Shown in pieces: positions 35,535-42,879 of a stretch of DNA of 64,000 nt (position 1 is its first letter; each line of letters starts with the position of its first letter). Both the position numbers and the translations under genes were made by a program. Location of the stretch: assembly GCF_000025705.1 (NCBI RefSeq), contig NC_013959.1, forward strand, positions 2,364,001 through 2,428,000, written 5' to 3'. The notes under the pieces were generated by a model that was given only the letters and a program-made list of their open reading frames with translations, made no database searches and had not been told where the DNA came from. The stretch is from Sideroxydans lithotrophicus ES-1 (lineage in GTDB: Bacteria > Pseudomonadota > Gammaproteobacteria > Burkholderiales > Gallionellaceae).

Positions 35535-35990
35535 ATGGCATACATGGAATGGACGCGGGACCTGGAATCTGGCATTCCGGTCATTGATGCACAACACAAG
35601 CGCATCATTGAATTCATCAACGAACTGGATGATGCATGCCAAACCGGCAACACCGAAGAGACCAGCCACGTGATGGAAGGGTTGCTCAATTACACGGTGA
35701 CCCACTTCGAGTTTGAAGAAGATCTGCAGGAAAAAGCGGGATATCCCTTCCTCAAGGCGCACCAGCGAATACACGAAATTTTCATGAAAAAGGTCTCCGA
35801 CATCAGAGGGCGAGCCGCCAAGGGAGAGGATGTCGCGCCTGAGCTGTTGCGATTATTGAAGGGGTGGCTGGCAAGCCACATAAAAGGGGAAGACCGGGAC
35901 TATGTCGAGTCAGTCAAGAAAGTTCTTGATAGTGACGATCAGGAGGTTGCTGGCTGGCTGAACACATTACTCAAGAAATTTGCCAACTGA
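35535..35990 (+). CDS. Bacteriohemerythrin
   Basis: The 151-residue single-domain hemerythrin has all ligands of the di-iron site: VIDAQHKRIIEFINELD, YTVTHFEFEEDL, LKAHQRIHEIF and LASHIKGEDRDY. It should bind oxygen reversibly; roles proposed in the family are oxygen storage, delivery or sensing. GGGGAG lies 4 bases before the ATG. It lies between ftsX and nsrR and is transcribed toward nsrR. Confidence 0.95.
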   Translation: MAYMEWTRDLESGIPVIDAQHKRIIEFINELDDACQTGNTEETSHVMEGLLNYTVTHFEFEEDLQEKAGYPFLKAHQRIHEIFMKKVSDIRGRAAKGEDVAPELLRLLKGWLASHIKGEDRDYVESVKKVLDSDDQEVAGWLNTLLKKFAN

Positions 35991-35993
35991 AAA

Positions 35994-36011
35994 TTGCCAC
36001 GTTTGTGGCAA
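35994..36011 (+). terminator. Hairpin between bacteriohemerythrin and nsrR
   Basis: TTGCCAC pairs with GTGGCAA around a GTTT loop, 3 bases after the hemerythrin stop. No long T run follows in either direction, so termination strength is uncertain. Confidence 0.4.
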
Positions 36012-36060
36012 ACTGCCAATTTCTGCAACAGCCTGCTGGGCGGTGAATTCGCTGCGGAAC

Positions 36061-36519
36061 CTAGCGCCGCAGATTCGAGACATCCACAACCACGGTCTTG
36101 CCTGATCTTGCTTGAGCTAGCGGTCTTGCTGCATCCGCAAGCGTGTTTTTCTCCAATACAGCCATGAAGGCCGACCGCCCTTCATACAGCATCGACTTCA
36201 GTCGGCAAGCCGAGCTGATCACGCAGTTGTCTGTACTTTCATTGAAGCATTCCAGCAGATCCATATCGGGCTCAGTTTTCCTGACCACATCGCTCAATAA
36301 TATTGCTTCGGCCGCACGAGCGAGCTTTATCCCACCATTCTTGCCGCGGCTGGTGATGATGAACTCATTCAGCCCGAGGTTATGCACCACCTTTACCAGA
36401 TGATTGCGCGAAATGTTGTAGAAGTCGGAGATCTCGGTGATCGTGGCCGTTTCCCCCGGCTTGGAAGCCAGGTACAAAAGCACTCGTAGCGAATAGTCTG
36501 TGTAAATAGTGAGTCTCAC
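36061..36519 (-). CDS. nsrR: Rrf2-family NO-sensing repressor NsrR
   Basis: The 152-residue protein starts MRLTIYTDYSLRVLLYLASK, the hallmark of NsrR. It has the winged helix EISDFYNISRNHLVKVVHNL and three Cys (ECFNESTDNCVISSACRL) spaced C-x7-C-x5-C as NsrR ligands for a [Fe-S] cluster. Nitric oxide damages the cluster and releases DNA. The start codon is GTG with no clear ribosome site. It diverges from the truncated-hemoglobin gene, and a near-perfect NsrR-like operator lies in the gap, so it very probably represses that operon. Confidence 0.93.
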   Translation of the reverse strand: MRLTIYTDYSLRVLLYLASKPGETATITEISDFYNISRNHLVKVVHNLGLNEFIITSRGKNGGIKLARAAEAILLSDVVRKTEPDMDLLECFNESTDNCVISSACRLKSMLYEGRSAFMAVLEKNTLADAARPLAQARSGKTVVVDVSNLRR

Positions 36520-36552
36520 AATATTTAATTTCCGCAGTTTATTAATTCACGC

Positions 36553-36582
36553 TTGACAAAGAATAATGCCCGAACATAAGAT
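36553..36582 (+). promoter_or_regulatory. Sigma70-like promoter for the hemoglobin/reductase operon
   Basis: TTGACA at 36553-36558 is a consensus -35 box. TAAGAT at 36577-36582 matches 4 of 6 -10 bases with an 18-base spacer. It points to the truncated-hemoglobin gene about 150 bases downstream and overlaps the NsrR-like operator. Confidence 0.65.
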
Positions 36583-36600
36583 GTATTTGGAATACATATT
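36578..36600. promoter_or_regulatory. NsrR-type operator
   Basis: A 23-base dyad has left arm AAGATGTATTT and right arm GAATACATATT around a central G. Nine of eleven base pairs are complementary, and the arms match the known NsrR pattern of AAGATGyATTT facing its complement. It covers the -10 box, so bound repressor would block transcription of the hemoglobin operon, with NO as inducer (inference). Confidence 0.75.
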
Positions 36601-36735
36601 ATGCGCTTTTGAGCTTAACTACACATCAAATGTTAAGAAAGCGTTAAGAATGTATACCATTTTCGTTCTTTAAGTAAAGACCGTTTTGTTTATAAACGGA
36701 CATTGTAGGCTATCAAAATTTGGAGGGAGTGAGAA

Positions 36736-37101
36736 ATGAGCAGTTTGTACGAACAAATTGGTGGTGAAGGCGCAGTCAACGCTGCTGTGGACATTTTCTA
36801 TCGCAAAGTGTTGCAAGATGCCCGTATCAAACGTTTTTTTGATGGTGTCGACATGGAGAAGCAAGCCGCCAAGCAAAAAGCGTTTTTGACGATGGCATTC
36901 GGCGGACCGCACAATTACACCGGCGAAGACATGAGAAAGGGCCATGCACACTTGGTCAAGCAAGGTCTGAATGATTCGCATTTTGACGCAGTAATGGAAA
37001 ACCTGGGCGCAACACTGACAGAACTCAATGTTCCCGGCAATCTCATTGCTCAAGCCGCAGCAATCGCCGAAAGCACCCGCAACGATGTTCTAGGCAAATA
37101 A
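36736..37101 (+). CDS. Truncated hemoglobin, group 1 (GlbN type)
   Basis: The 121-residue globin starts MSSLYEQIGGEGAVNAAVDI and has FYRKVLQDARIKRFFDGVDM and FLTMAFGGPHNYTGEDMRKG followed by HAHLV; the His of that segment is the expected proximal heme ligand. The double-glycine motifs of the 2/2 globin fold are present. Group 1 proteins often act on NO, turning it into nitrate with oxygen. GGAGGG precedes the ATG. The reductase gene follows 14 bases later, giving the same two functions found fused in flavohemoglobin. An NsrR-like operator controls the promoter. Confidence 0.94.
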   Translation: MSSLYEQIGGEGAVNAAVDIFYRKVLQDARIKRFFDGVDMEKQAAKQKAFLTMAFGGPHNYTGEDMRKGHAHLVKQGLNDSHFDAVMENLGATLTELNVPGNLIAQAAAIAESTRNDVLGK

Positions 37102-37115
37102 GCAGGAATCACATC

Positions 37116-38117
37116 ATGTCCAGTATCACTTATGGCGGGCAGTCATTTCAGTGCAAAGCGCAAGAATCCGTGCTCGACTGCATGACTGCCCATGGTGTGA
37201 TTATTCCCTCATCATGCCATGCGGGTCTTTGCCAGACCTGCCTGATGCAGGCCGTCAAGGGAAAAGTGCCAGCATCCGCACAAGCCGGGTTAAAAAGCAC
37301 GCTTGTTGCCCAGAATTTTTTTCTCGCCTGCGCCTGCCACCCCGAGGAGGATATCGAGATAGCCCTCCCCAAAGCTGGCACGGGTAAATTTTCAGCCACT
37401 GTCACGGCAATAAAACCGCTGAATACAGAAATCGCCTGCCTGCAGCTGCGTCCAGACATAAAACTGGACTACAAAGCCGGCCAGTTCATCAACTTGTATA
37501 AAGACACTTCGACGGCGCGCTCGTATTCCCTGGCGAGCGTGCCGGAAATTGACGAGCACTTGCAATTCCATATCAGGAAAGTACCCAACGGCCTAGTCAG
37601 CCAATGGATTCATCAAGGATTGAATGTCGGGGACAACATAGATATTTCGGATGCCTCCGGGGATTGCTTTTACACGCAAGGCCGTCCCGACCAGAATATA
37701 TTGCTGATCGGGACCGGCTCGGGTTTGGCCCCGCTGTATGGAATCATCCGGGATGCGCTTTTACAAGGGCATCAAGGCTCGATCAAGCTTTATCACGGCA
37801 GTGAGACCGTCGCATCGCTCTACCTGTCCAAAGAATTGAGATCTTTGGAGTCGAGCCACCCCAATTTTGTCTATACGCCTTGCATTTCCGGCAATGATGT
37901 TCCGCAAGGCTATGCCTCGGGAATGGTGCTTGATGTGGCGCTGAAAGACAATCCGGGACTCACCGGTTGGCGGGTTTTTCTGTGCGGCCATCCCGAGATG
38001 GTCAAGGCCGGGAAAAAGCAGGTGTTTTTTGCCGGAGCATCCATGCGCGATATTTATGCAGATCCATTCTTGTCCGCGCCGGTAAATTTGCCGCTTGTGG
38101 CTGAACTGCAAACTTGA
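37116..38117 (+). CDS. Ferredoxin-linked flavin reductase ([2Fe-2S]-FAD-NAD domains)
   Basis: The 333-residue protein joins a plant-type [2Fe-2S] domain (SCHAGLCQTCLMQAVKGK and later FFLACACHPEED), an FAD domain (ARSYSLASVPE) and an NAD(P)-binding domain (ILLIGTGSGLAPLYGII and FLCGHPEMVKAG). This plan is that of the reductase parts of bacterial oxygenases. Here it is placed 14 bases after a truncated hemoglobin, so it may re-reduce the globin heme, making a two-piece equivalent of flavohemoglobin (inference). No oxygenase subunits lie nearby. Confidence 0.9.
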   Translation: MSSITYGGQSFQCKAQESVLDCMTAHGVIIPSSCHAGLCQTCLMQAVKGKVPASAQAGLKSTLVAQNFFLACACHPEEDIEIALPKAGTGKFSATVTAIKPLNTEIACLQLRPDIKLDYKAGQFINLYKDTSTARSYSLASVPEIDEHLQFHIRKVPNGLVSQWIHQGLNVGDNIDISDASGDCFYTQGRPDQNILLIGTGSGLAPLYGIIRDALLQGHQGSIKLYHGSETVASLYLSKELRSLESSHPNFVYTPCISGNDVPQGYASGMVLDVALKDNPGLTGWRVFLCGHPEMVKAGKKQVFFAGASMRDIYADPFLSAPVNLPLVAELQT

Positions 38118-38280
38118 AACTTGATTCCATCTGGAGTACTTCGGCCGATTTGGCGGCTATTGCAAAATGGCAAGGCGAACTGAAAGTTGGACTTCCTCTT
38201 TTGGCCAACTTTGGTTACTCTTCTTGTCAGGCCTCGGCTGATAACCGAATTAACTGAATTTTAACAAGAAAGGTTTATAA

Positions 38281-38466
38281 ATGGATTCCAAGACGCGCAC
38301 TCTCGTACTCTCGATCATCGCAGCAGTTGCCCTGTGGCTGGTCGGTGGCTTTGTGTTCAACATGTATATTGGGATGATTTGCGTGATGGCTGGCATCGCC
38401 CTCGTCGGATTGGCTGCCGGCAACATCATGAATTCGCCGGAACCTGAACATACCAAGGCCCCATAG
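38281..38466 (+). CDS. Small two-helix membrane protein
   Basis: The 61-residue product has two hydrophobic stretches (LVLSIIAAVALWLVGGFVF and IGMICVMAGIALVGLAAG) between a short charged start and a polar tail (NSPEPEHTKAP). GAAAGG lies 7 bases before the ATG. I recognise no family. It follows the reductase on the same strand after a 163-bp gap, so it may have its own promoter; whether it belongs to the NsrR regulon is unknown. Confidence 0.6.
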   Translation: MDSKTRTLVLSIIAAVALWLVGGFVFNMYIGMICVMAGIALVGLAAGNIMNSPEPEHTKAP

Positions 38467-38633: not shown

Positions 38634-39080
38634 TTACATATCAGACTGTTGCAGATGTTTGTTCAGCTCAGTCAGGTCCTGGATGACATCGCGGGAGGCA
38701 CGCGCATACTCGCTCTTCAGTAGCGCATCCGAACCTGCCAAATCTTTTTCCTGCACCTTTTTCACTATCGAGCCCGCCACAAAATGGAAGTTCGCGTGAT
38801 CGGAACGTAATTTATGGAAACCTTCATCGTTATGGAAGTAATTGAGCGCCGCGCCATGGATCCATTTTCCCAGCACACATTGATCATCGCGGCAAATCAC
38901 CATGGGATCCAGCTGCTCTTTTGACGTTCCCTCCAGATAACTCTGCAGGCGCCCCTTCCATTTCATATGCGCATCAATGCATTCGGCTATATTGATCTCG
39001 GAACGAATGCTCTTGCGAATGTTCTCCCTGTGTTCTTCATCGTGCTCATCGTGTCCAAACAGTCTCGAAAAAAAACCCAT
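38634..39080 (-). CDS. Stand-alone CZB (chemoreceptor zinc-binding) domain protein
   Basis: The 148-residue protein has a CZB domain with its 3-His/1-Cys zinc site: His in CIDAHMKWKGRLQSYLEG, Cys in DDQCVLGKWIHG, and the His residues of LRSDHANFHFV. CZB domains sense zinc or hypochlorous acid and regulate chemoreceptors or diguanylate cyclases. A short basic/aromatic N-terminus (MGFFSRLFGHDEHDEEH) precedes it. ATG 39080 follows GGAGGAAAAAGC; the longer frame to 39110 is unlikely. A 7-bp dyad lies 37 bases upstream. Confidence 0.88.
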   Translation of the reverse strand: MGFFSRLFGHDEHDEEHRENIRKSIRSEINIAECIDAHMKWKGRLQSYLEGTSKEQLDPMVICRDDQCVLGKWIHGAALNYFHNDEGFHKLRSDHANFHFVAGSIVKKVQEKDLAGSDALLKSEYARASRDVIQDLTELNKHLQQSDM

Positions 39081-39116
39081 GCTTTTTCCTCCAGTTCCGG
39101 TTAACACCAAACACTG

Positions 39117-41409: not shown

Positions 41410-41802
41410 TTATGCAACCTTGACCATGTGCGGATGTTTCTCTTCGACGATTTTGTCGAGTATCTGCATCACGCTCATGCTGGCTTCTTCGGCGGCATTC
41501 ATGGCCTCAATGATCTTGTCCTGCACTCCCGTATCGCGTTCCCATTTCTGATCCAGCAGGCCGACCGCCATTTTCACGGAATCGTGCACCTTGCCGTGCG
41601 GGACAAGCAGTTGCTTGAACGACGGCATCTCACCGAACACCGTCCTGCCTTCGCCCTCGTACCACTTGCCGAGGCGGCAGTCATGGTGATCGACCTCAAC
41701 GGCCTTCCTGAACTCATCATTGTCCTTTTGGCCGACCAGCACATAGGAACGTTGCTTGTAAATAATGTGATCGACTTTGACCAGCGAGGCAAAACTCAGA
41801 TC
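41410..41802 (-). pseudogene. CZB domain cut from the chemoreceptor by an in-frame TAG
   Basis: Directly after the TAG that ends the chemoreceptor the same frame continues DLSFASLVKVDHIIYKQRSY and VEVDHHDCRLGKWYEGEG, then LVPHGKVHDSV. This is a complete CZB domain with its 3-His/1-Cys zinc site, normally the C-terminus of this receptor type. It has no ribosome site or good start of its own (first possible GTG at 41742 would remove the first His). It is therefore either lost by a nonsense mutation or made only by stop-codon read-through. The coding pattern after the stop is undamaged. Confidence 0.8.
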
Positions 41803-42879
41803 CTAGGCATAACGCGCTCCGTTCAAAGTAGTGACTGCAGACTCGTAGAAATGTCCGAACTTCTTTTCCAACTGCCCGATCACCCCTTGAGACGAGTTGG
41901 CGATCTCGCGCATTTCTTCCGATTCCACCAGCATCCTGGATGCCTCGCCCTGCAGCATCTTCATGATGCGCCCGATGGATTCGGAGGCATTCTTGGTGTT
42001 CTCTGCAAGTTTGCGCACCTCGTCAGCCACCACCGCAAAACCCCGCCCGGCCTCGCCAGCTCTGGCCGCCTCGATCGCCGCGTTCAAAGCCAGCAGATTG
42101 GTCTGGTCTGCGATCGAATTGATCAGACCGACTGCCTTGTTGATTTCGGAACTGCGGGCGTTCAGTTCAGTGATCGACTCATTGGCATGGTTCACCCGCT
42201 CGACGATGCCGGACAAGCGCTTGACCACATCGCTCACGGAAGTGCGGCTTTCATCAGCGTCTTCACGGGTGCGCCTGGACAGGGATGCCAATTGCGCCAT
42301 GTTGTCAGTGATCACGCGCAGATCCTGCTGGCTCGAAACCAGATTCTTCAGCAGATTGTTGGTGTTGAGTTCATGCGCCCGGGACAGCAGGTGCGAACGC
42401 ATTGCGCCCAGTTTCTGCTCCGCCATTCCTTCCAGCAGGACATTCTGGTTCTCCAGTCCTTTCTTGAAACCGCCATGCATACCTGTTGGCAGGGCTTCGC
42501 GATAAAACTTTCCATCCAGATTGGCACGGAAGCTGGTCCCCTGTTCACGGAAGAAGGTGTTCAATTGATCCAGCATGTCGTTCACGCTCCAGCACAACAT
42601 GCTGATTTCGTCATGAGTTCTGGATATCCCGGTCACCCGTCCATTGAACTTGCCTTGGGCTACTTCGTCCACCACCGCCTTCAATTGCGCCACCGGCCTC
42701 ATCCACTGGCGCACCAGTCTTTGTCCCCAGGCCGACATCCCGATGCTGATCACGAGAAAAGTCACCATGAATATATCCACCCCGTTCAATGCGAAACTGG
42801 TCAGGATGATCACCAGCGTGATGGCCGAGAACGACCATAACAGCACGGAGAACTTAAATTGCAAGGACGAGTTCGTCAT
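41803..42879 (-). CDS. Methyl-accepting chemotaxis protein (CZB domain detached)
   Basis: The 358-residue receptor has two closely spaced membrane helices ([38 protein letters not shown]) with almost no periplasmic loop, a HAMP-like linker, and the conserved signalling hairpin [20 protein letters not shown] then [20 protein letters not shown]. The lack of a periplasmic domain suggests it senses inside the cell. The Aer-like PAS gene overlaps its start by 26 bases, so the two probably make a two-piece aerotaxis receptor. An amber TAG at 41803-41805 ends it just before a complete CZB domain in the same frame. Confidence 0.9.

Follow-up and report, generated by a model that had tools for sequence, protein, structure and literature searches.

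A truncated haemoglobin and a three-domain reductase beneath an NsrR-type operator in Sideroxydans lithotrophicus ES-1: a probable two-chain counterpart of flavohaemoglobin

We analysed a window of 64,000 nucleotides from Sideroxydans lithotrophicus ES-1 (positions 2,364,001 to 2,428,000 of NC_013959.1). The initial annotation had described a truncated haemoglobin (trHb) gene and a [2Fe-2S]/FAD/NAD reductase gene 14 bases apart, divergent from nsrR, and this arrangement holds: the stop-to-start distance is 14 bases, both genes are on the plus strand and nsrR is on the minus strand. The features are listed below in window coordinates, except for the last, which lies elsewhere in the genome.

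36061-36519, minus strand: nsrR, Rrf2-family NO-sensing repressor, 152 aa, GTG start
36553-36582, plus strand: sigma-70-like promoter TTGACA-18-TAAGAT (-35 at 36553-36558, -10 at 36577-36582)
36578-36600, plus strand: predicted NsrR-type operator dyad, overlapping five of the six bases of the -10 hexamer
36631-36665, plus strand: second conserved leader element, TGTTAAGAAAGCGTTAAGAATGTATACC...
36736-37101, plus strand: trHbN, group 1 truncated haemoglobin, 121 aa
37116-38117, plus strand: [2Fe-2S] ferredoxin, FAD and NAD(P) reductase, 333 aa, likely electron donor of the globin
38281-38466, plus strand: small ORF, 61 aa, two-TM-like by reading
G000:C1:1208634-1208993, minus strand: anchored trHbN paralog, 85% identical to the window trHbN

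The globin was assigned from the ORF list, Pfam and aligned residues. It matches Bac_globin (PF01152, E 5.2e-18) and its closest solved structures are cyanoglobins (1s69, E 5.8e-36), both as in the group 1 fold. Alignment places Y22, Q43, Q47 and H70 at positions that we take, by the helix lettering of trHbN structures, to be TyrB10, GlnE7, GlnE11 and HisF8; the protein also has a lysine presumably at E10, the position that we assume for the lysine of Chlamydomonas THB1. The whole ES-1 genome holds exactly four Bac_globin matches, in agreement with the three trHbN and one trHbO reported for this organism (PMC3770913), and we thus take the window globin as one of the trHbN genes named there.

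The reductase comprises Fer2, FAD_binding_6 and NAD_binding_1 domains (Pfam). Its top solved-structure match is 5ogx (E 1e-44), which we take to be GcoB and which has the same Fer2-FAD-NAD order in one chain; it differs in that the matched chain is labelled 'Cytochrome P450 reductase', suggesting that a reductase of this kind can serve a haem protein. Against the PRK05713 ferredoxin reductase model (NF004317) the window protein scores 187 bits, under the curated cut-off of 338.

The divergent regulator belongs to the Rrf2 family (Pfam, E 3.6e-32), and NsrR is its best-scoring specific NCBIfam model. Because that score (132 bits) lies below the curated cut-off of 182, we call the protein NsrR-like, the name resting on residues, synteny and operator. 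Asp8, Arg12, Cys91, Cys99 and Cys105 are all present; these positions are cluster ligands and a salt-bridge partner in S. coelicolor NsrR (PMC5411485).

The two hexamers of the sigma-70-like promoter proposed for the pair are present and the -35 one is invariant in six same-genus relatives, but a scan of 36000-38300 finds 3 promoter-like sites versus 2.5 in shuffles, so the promoter is insignificant by the scan alone. The 23-base dyad AAGATGTATTTGGAATACATATT that covers most of the -10 box fares better, and its earlier reading as an NsrR-pattern site is borne out: it has one mismatch to an NsrR consensus pattern, 100 shuffles of the window contain no match to that pattern, and 21 of the 23 dyad positions are invariant in the alignment with the six relatives, as are all six bases of TTGACA. 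A pattern built from the two globin promoters of ES-1 (window and anchored paralog) matches the whole genome, at three mismatches or fewer, at those two loci only (reversed control, 0). The 17-base core dyad, at one mismatch or fewer, gives two perfect loci, both of them globin promoters, and two loci with one mismatch (control, 1). We treated the latter (G000:C1:1581647 and 2258527) as chance, since the reversed control also gives one match; their neighbours, by eye, encode a porin-like protein and a sensor/diguanylate-cyclase-like protein.

The second leader element, recognized from the alignment with same-genus relatives and from reading of the letters, consists of two GTTAA motifs 11 bases apart followed by AATGTATACC and contains ATGTATmCC. 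By eye, part of this block is common to the promoter of the anchored paralog. It is perhaps a second NsrR half-site, a second promoter or a response-regulator site.

Within the genus, the pair behaves as part of a larger unit. In the window and four relatives that carry it (5/5), the gene order is ftsX-haemerythrin-[nsrR-globin-reductase-small ORF]-CZB-pmbA-yjgA (ftsX, pmbA and yjgA named by reading), whereas in four of ten globin-free relatives haemerythrin and CZB are immediate neighbours (ftsX-haemerythrin-CZB-pmbA-yjgA); of the other six, five show ftsX either alone or together with haemerythrin, and one lacks CZB. The occupied and empty sites together indicate that nsrR, globin, reductase and small ORF come or go together. 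The small ORF is found in all seven module-bearing genus genomes (69-73% identical) and in L027, and in none of the other fetched loci at E ≤ 0.001. Both the haemerythrin gene (35535-35990) and the downstream gene for a chemoreceptor zinc-binding (CZB) domain protein (38637-39110) were considered as module members and rejected, as they stay in four same-genus genomes without the module. A further CZB domain protein is encoded at 41410-41742, and both CZB genes lie near a chemotaxis receptor gene (41803-42879).

The segment is also more A+T-rich than its flanks, as had been remarked: G+C is 31.9% in the intergenic region, 49.3% in the globin gene and 52.8% in the reductase gene, the pair being lowest among 29 long ORFs picked mechanically from the window (mean 58.9, sd 2.9). 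The low G+C fits transfer, of which it is no proof. The four-gene presence/absence unit, which may reflect either gain or loss, lends partial support to the suggestion of transfer. A mobilizable plasmid of Methylocystis rosea (L025) carries the pair (globin 65% identical), which indicates that it can travel. On this plasmid a sigma-factor gene and a small gene lie upstream of the pair and no nsrR is annotated within 4 kb in a gene table that is incomplete; the plasmid pair is perhaps under another mode of control.

Adjacency of globin and reductase with nsrR, which the initial annotation had put forward as a check on its reading, recurs across genomes. Among 61 related genomes (globin cut-off E ≤ 1e-15), nine have such a globin, seven of them among the 34 of the genus, ES-1 included. 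The 14 globin matches fall into nine soluble-type loci and five anchored or tandem loci. In genus and family together, the reductase follows the globin directly, and nsrR diverges, at all nine soluble-type loci; none of the five anchored or tandem loci has the reductase, with L021 offering only 74 bases of downstream sequence.

Beyond the family, a set of named genomes was examined through the best 80 of 93 loci, and 64 of these 80 have the reductase downstream; three of the 16 others (L032, L077 and L104) run into contig ends. The figure carries a bias from the query alignment, in which five of seven globins were known to be reductase-linked (all except L002 and L026). Among these best 80 loci, an nsrR-like gene (Rrf2 relative at E ≤ 1e-5, 35-81% identity) accompanies 28 of the 64 linked ones, two or three of the 28 being only 35-39% identical and possibly other Rrf2 members. 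In eight loci (L061, L071, L072, L083-L085, L088 and L097) nsrR lies 3' of the reductase and is read in the same direction. Methanotrophs account for many of the named loci; others belong to records titled Acidobacteria, Corallococcus, Pyxidicoccus, Nannocystis, Bacteriovorax and Hydrogenedentota, several of which are metagenome bins.

We also drew 370 genomes evenly from the class (at least 90% complete; globin cut-off E ≤ 1e-12) and detected a trHbN match in 69. The 85 loci taken from these genomes gave 95 globin matches by tblastn, 85 of them at 55% identity or more. The reductase lies directly downstream of 51 of these 85 close copies, in constant order and strand, with a gap of 4-168 nt (stop codon included). 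Twenty of the remaining copies are in ten loci with long ORFs and 14 are single and unlinked. An NsrR-like dyad (four mismatches or fewer, within 300 nt upstream) precedes 26/51 linked copies (coding control 0, shuffle mean 0.10), 6/9 first tandem domains and 3/14 unlinked copies (coding controls 0, shuffle means 0.00 and 0.00), and an nsrR-like gene stands beside 18/51 linked copies (flanks of about 1.5 kb). Given that 25/51 linked copies lack the dyad, and that an nsrR-like gene is beside so few of the linked copies in the class and named sets, NsrR control is not universal. Over the 370 genomes, 52 have both globin and reductase, 17 the globin only and four the reductase only (p 2e-43, uncorrected for kinship).

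Two or three trHbN domains per ORF occur in nine of the ten long-ORF loci (L107, L109, L110, L113, L116, L118, L127, L135 and L154), and L023, L029, L055 and L105 also have multi-trHbN open frames. Lys E10 was tried as a marker of reductase-linked globins and rejected: it occurs in 51/51 and 68/68 linked copies, but also in 10/14 (class sample) and 16/21 (named set, whose retrieval pattern favours K/H at this position) unlinked ones. It is retained only as a trait of the clade.

Apart from the window site, the one perfect core dyad in the ES-1 genome lies upstream of the anchored trHbN paralog. About 17 hydrophobic residues at the start of this protein resemble a membrane anchor, and no reductase is found beside its gene within 1.5 kb. 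In 27 of 28 anchored globins counted (leaving out L053, a soluble globin whose apparent anchor is a start-codon artefact), the Lys and Arg residues close to the anchor are confined to its globin side, which by the positive-inside rule places the globin in the cytoplasm. A search of 397 genomes across the phylum (E ≤ 1e-70) yielded 27 genomes, three of them ES-1 itself, fused or already sampled, and thus 24 loci were counted. In 19 of these the order is soluble trHbN, anchored trHbN, reductase; four have one soluble globin and one has none within the flank. A divergent nsrR is seen by eye in 19/24. We call these genomes Zetaproteobacteria-like because the Mariprofundus/Mariprofundales loci L066 and L078 have the same array and the anchors of L224 and L066 agree letter for letter; L077, of the same group, is cut by a contig end. 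The array is also found in L089. In a tree of 212 globins the anchored ones do not form one group (seven changes, at least three of them forced by starred branches), suggesting that anchoring may have arisen more than once; the tree (120 columns, 96 of 209 inner branches open) is weak and was used only for this grouping.

Flavohaemoglobin (Hmp) is a single chain with globin, FAD and NAD domains, is under NsrR control and carries out NO dioxygenation. The window pair likewise combines a globin with an FAD/NAD reductase, but in two ORFs; its globin is of the 2-over-2 type, and a [2Fe-2S] domain is present in addition. No match to Hmp was found in the ES-1 genome at E ≤ 1e-60. In the class sample, with up to four candidates scored per genome, full-length Hmp was detected in 30 of 370 genomes (28 above the cut-off, two slightly below); nine further matches, one of them in a trHbN genome (G272), reach the reductase part only and were not counted. 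None of the 69 globin genomes is among these 30, versus 5.6 expected (p 0.0025), and none of the 56 reductase genomes (p 0.013), both values being uncorrected for kinship.

Twelve reductase places in the class sample lie apart from a trHbN match. In four genomes (L206-L209) a single chain consists of the reductase, a Bac_globin domain (E 3e-9 to 5e-8) and a tail with four conserved cysteines, while in L211 a Bac_globin gene of its own lies immediately upstream of the reductase. At the other seven (L210, L212-L215, L275 and L276) no globin was found in the stretch read, L215 and L276 being cut by contig ends. Resemblance of the fused globins to trHbN is remote (in L207 and L208, where a match was obtained, 25-33% identity), so that the link is one between this reductase family and truncated globins generally. 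The phylum sample of 397 genomes (E ≤ 1e-70) gave one fusion only, already known. The cysteines of the fusion tails are arranged as CxxC...CxxC, and upstream of L206 and L207 lie, by eye, genes for small Roadblock-like and Cys-rich YkgJ-like proteins.

The idea that such a pair acts on NO is not new. Rodionov et al. (2005, PMC1274295) predicted the glbN-lpg2536 operon of Legionella pneumophila as the sole NsrR target there and suggested NO oxidation like that of Hmp, a proposal repeated by Gardner (2012, PMC3820574). As in the window, a trHb gene is followed by a ferredoxin-reductase gene on the same strand under an NsrR-type site in a genome without hmp. The window differs in its divergent nsrR, a second, anchored trHbN with a like dyad and a four-gene block; the accessible part of the Legionella account states no nsrR adjacency. 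The pair thus belongs to a predicted kind, on which the literature covered holds no experiment. Our addition lies in how widely the pair occurs, its mutual exclusion with Hmp, the anchored partner and the fused chains; the literature titles searched, with most subscription papers outside the search, include none on the anchored/soluble array, Hmp exclusion or fusion.

Other systems resemble the pair in part. In Bradyrhizobium a single-domain globin, Bjgb, and a separate flavoprotein, Flp, are together NO-protective (PMC4724949), but Bjgb is homologous to the Hmp globin domain, control is by nitrate through NasS-NasT, and a further role proposed for Flp is to feed nitrate reductase. Chlamydomonas THB1 is a group 1 trHb with a lysine, proposed as its sixth haem ligand (PMC4439042), and in the raphidophyte trHb-nitrate reductase the donor is an FNR-kind flavin reductase (PMC4439042, PMC3820574); both systems, unlike the window pair, are eukaryotic and have a nitrate reductase chain as donor. 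In a Methyloprofundus, transcript levels put a group I trHb gene in the top ten, which was interpreted as a possible response to NO (PMC8788690), and the joint occurrence of glbN and nsrR has been pointed out for Hydrogenedentota and Sumerlaeota bins (PMC10866078).

The pair is probably an NO-inducible, NADH-driven NO dioxygenase split over two polypeptides. This agrees with the initial annotation, which had read it as a two-piece flavohaemoglobin, a reading that the conservation of pair and operator, the mutual exclusion with Hmp and the reductase-globin fusions support at the level of sequence. NsrR, made divergently, would bind the dyad over the -10 box and block the promoter, and NO, by damaging the iron-sulfur cluster of NsrR as we infer from the family, would release expression of the operon. 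Ferrous oxy-trHbN would convert NO and O2 to nitrate, leaving the haem ferric, and the reductase would restore ferrous haem by relaying electrons to the globin from NAD(P)H, by way of FAD and its own [2Fe-2S] cluster. The pair would in this way do the work of flavohaemoglobin in a genome where no Hmp was found.

A different role was proposed by Emerson et al. (2013, PMC3770913), who hold the ES-1 trHbN to be more likely part of a terminal oxidase than of NO detoxification, their argument being that NO reductases lower the likelihood of an NO role. The trHbN would then deliver or store O2 for the oxidase under microaerobic conditions, the reductase only keeping the globin ferrous, as might suit a microaerophilic organism rich in haemerythrins. 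The NsrR-type operator speaks against this, being present at the window promoter and that of the anchored paralog with no other perfect core match in the genome, as does the mutual exclusion with Hmp. NO reductase and Hmp, moreover, occur together in other bacteria. We regard O2 supply as unlikely, and likewise the published view that this trHbN is not for NO detoxification.

It is improbable, too, that the reductase works with a different acceptor, for example a further globin or in Fe-S repair, and is only co-regulated with the globin. NsrR regulons do contain unrelated NO-response genes (PMC1274295), four of the 56 reductase genomes lack trHbN by our search, and both the seven of 12 reductase places with no globin nearby and the 14 single globin copies without reductase favour such a role. 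Yet of those four genomes two carry the fusion with a truncated globin (L206 and L207) and a third the upstream Bac_globin gene (L211), with none in L210, and wherever the pair occurs its order, strand and 4-168 nt spacing are kept. Globin haems reduce NO slowly and many named loci come from aerobic methanotrophs, making it very improbable that the pair acts mainly without O2, as an NO or nitrite/hydroxylamine reductase. The nitrite-reductase activity of Chlamydomonas group 1 trHbs in vitro (PMC4439042) and the low O2 at which ES-1 lives are the points in favour of such activity.

The NO dioxygenase reading bears on the published terminal-oxidase statement for the ES-1 trHbN (PMC3770913), and with the conserved, directly adjoining reductase the matter can be put to the test using two small soluble proteins of a harmless environmental bacterium. 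Taken further, and more tentatively, bacteria may have a widespread second 'flavohaemoglobin' lineage that takes the place of Hmp and consists of 2-over-2 globins together with a three-domain [2Fe-2S]/FAD/NAD reductase. A single reductase might serve two NsrR-controlled globins, cytoplasmic and inner-membrane-tethered, so that NO would be destroyed in the cytosol as well as at the membrane, close to the respiratory oxidases, and the one-chain fusion of a few lineages would be an independent invention with the opposite domain order. An anchored/soluble globin pair with one common reductase would, if true, be a new way of placing NO removal at the membrane.
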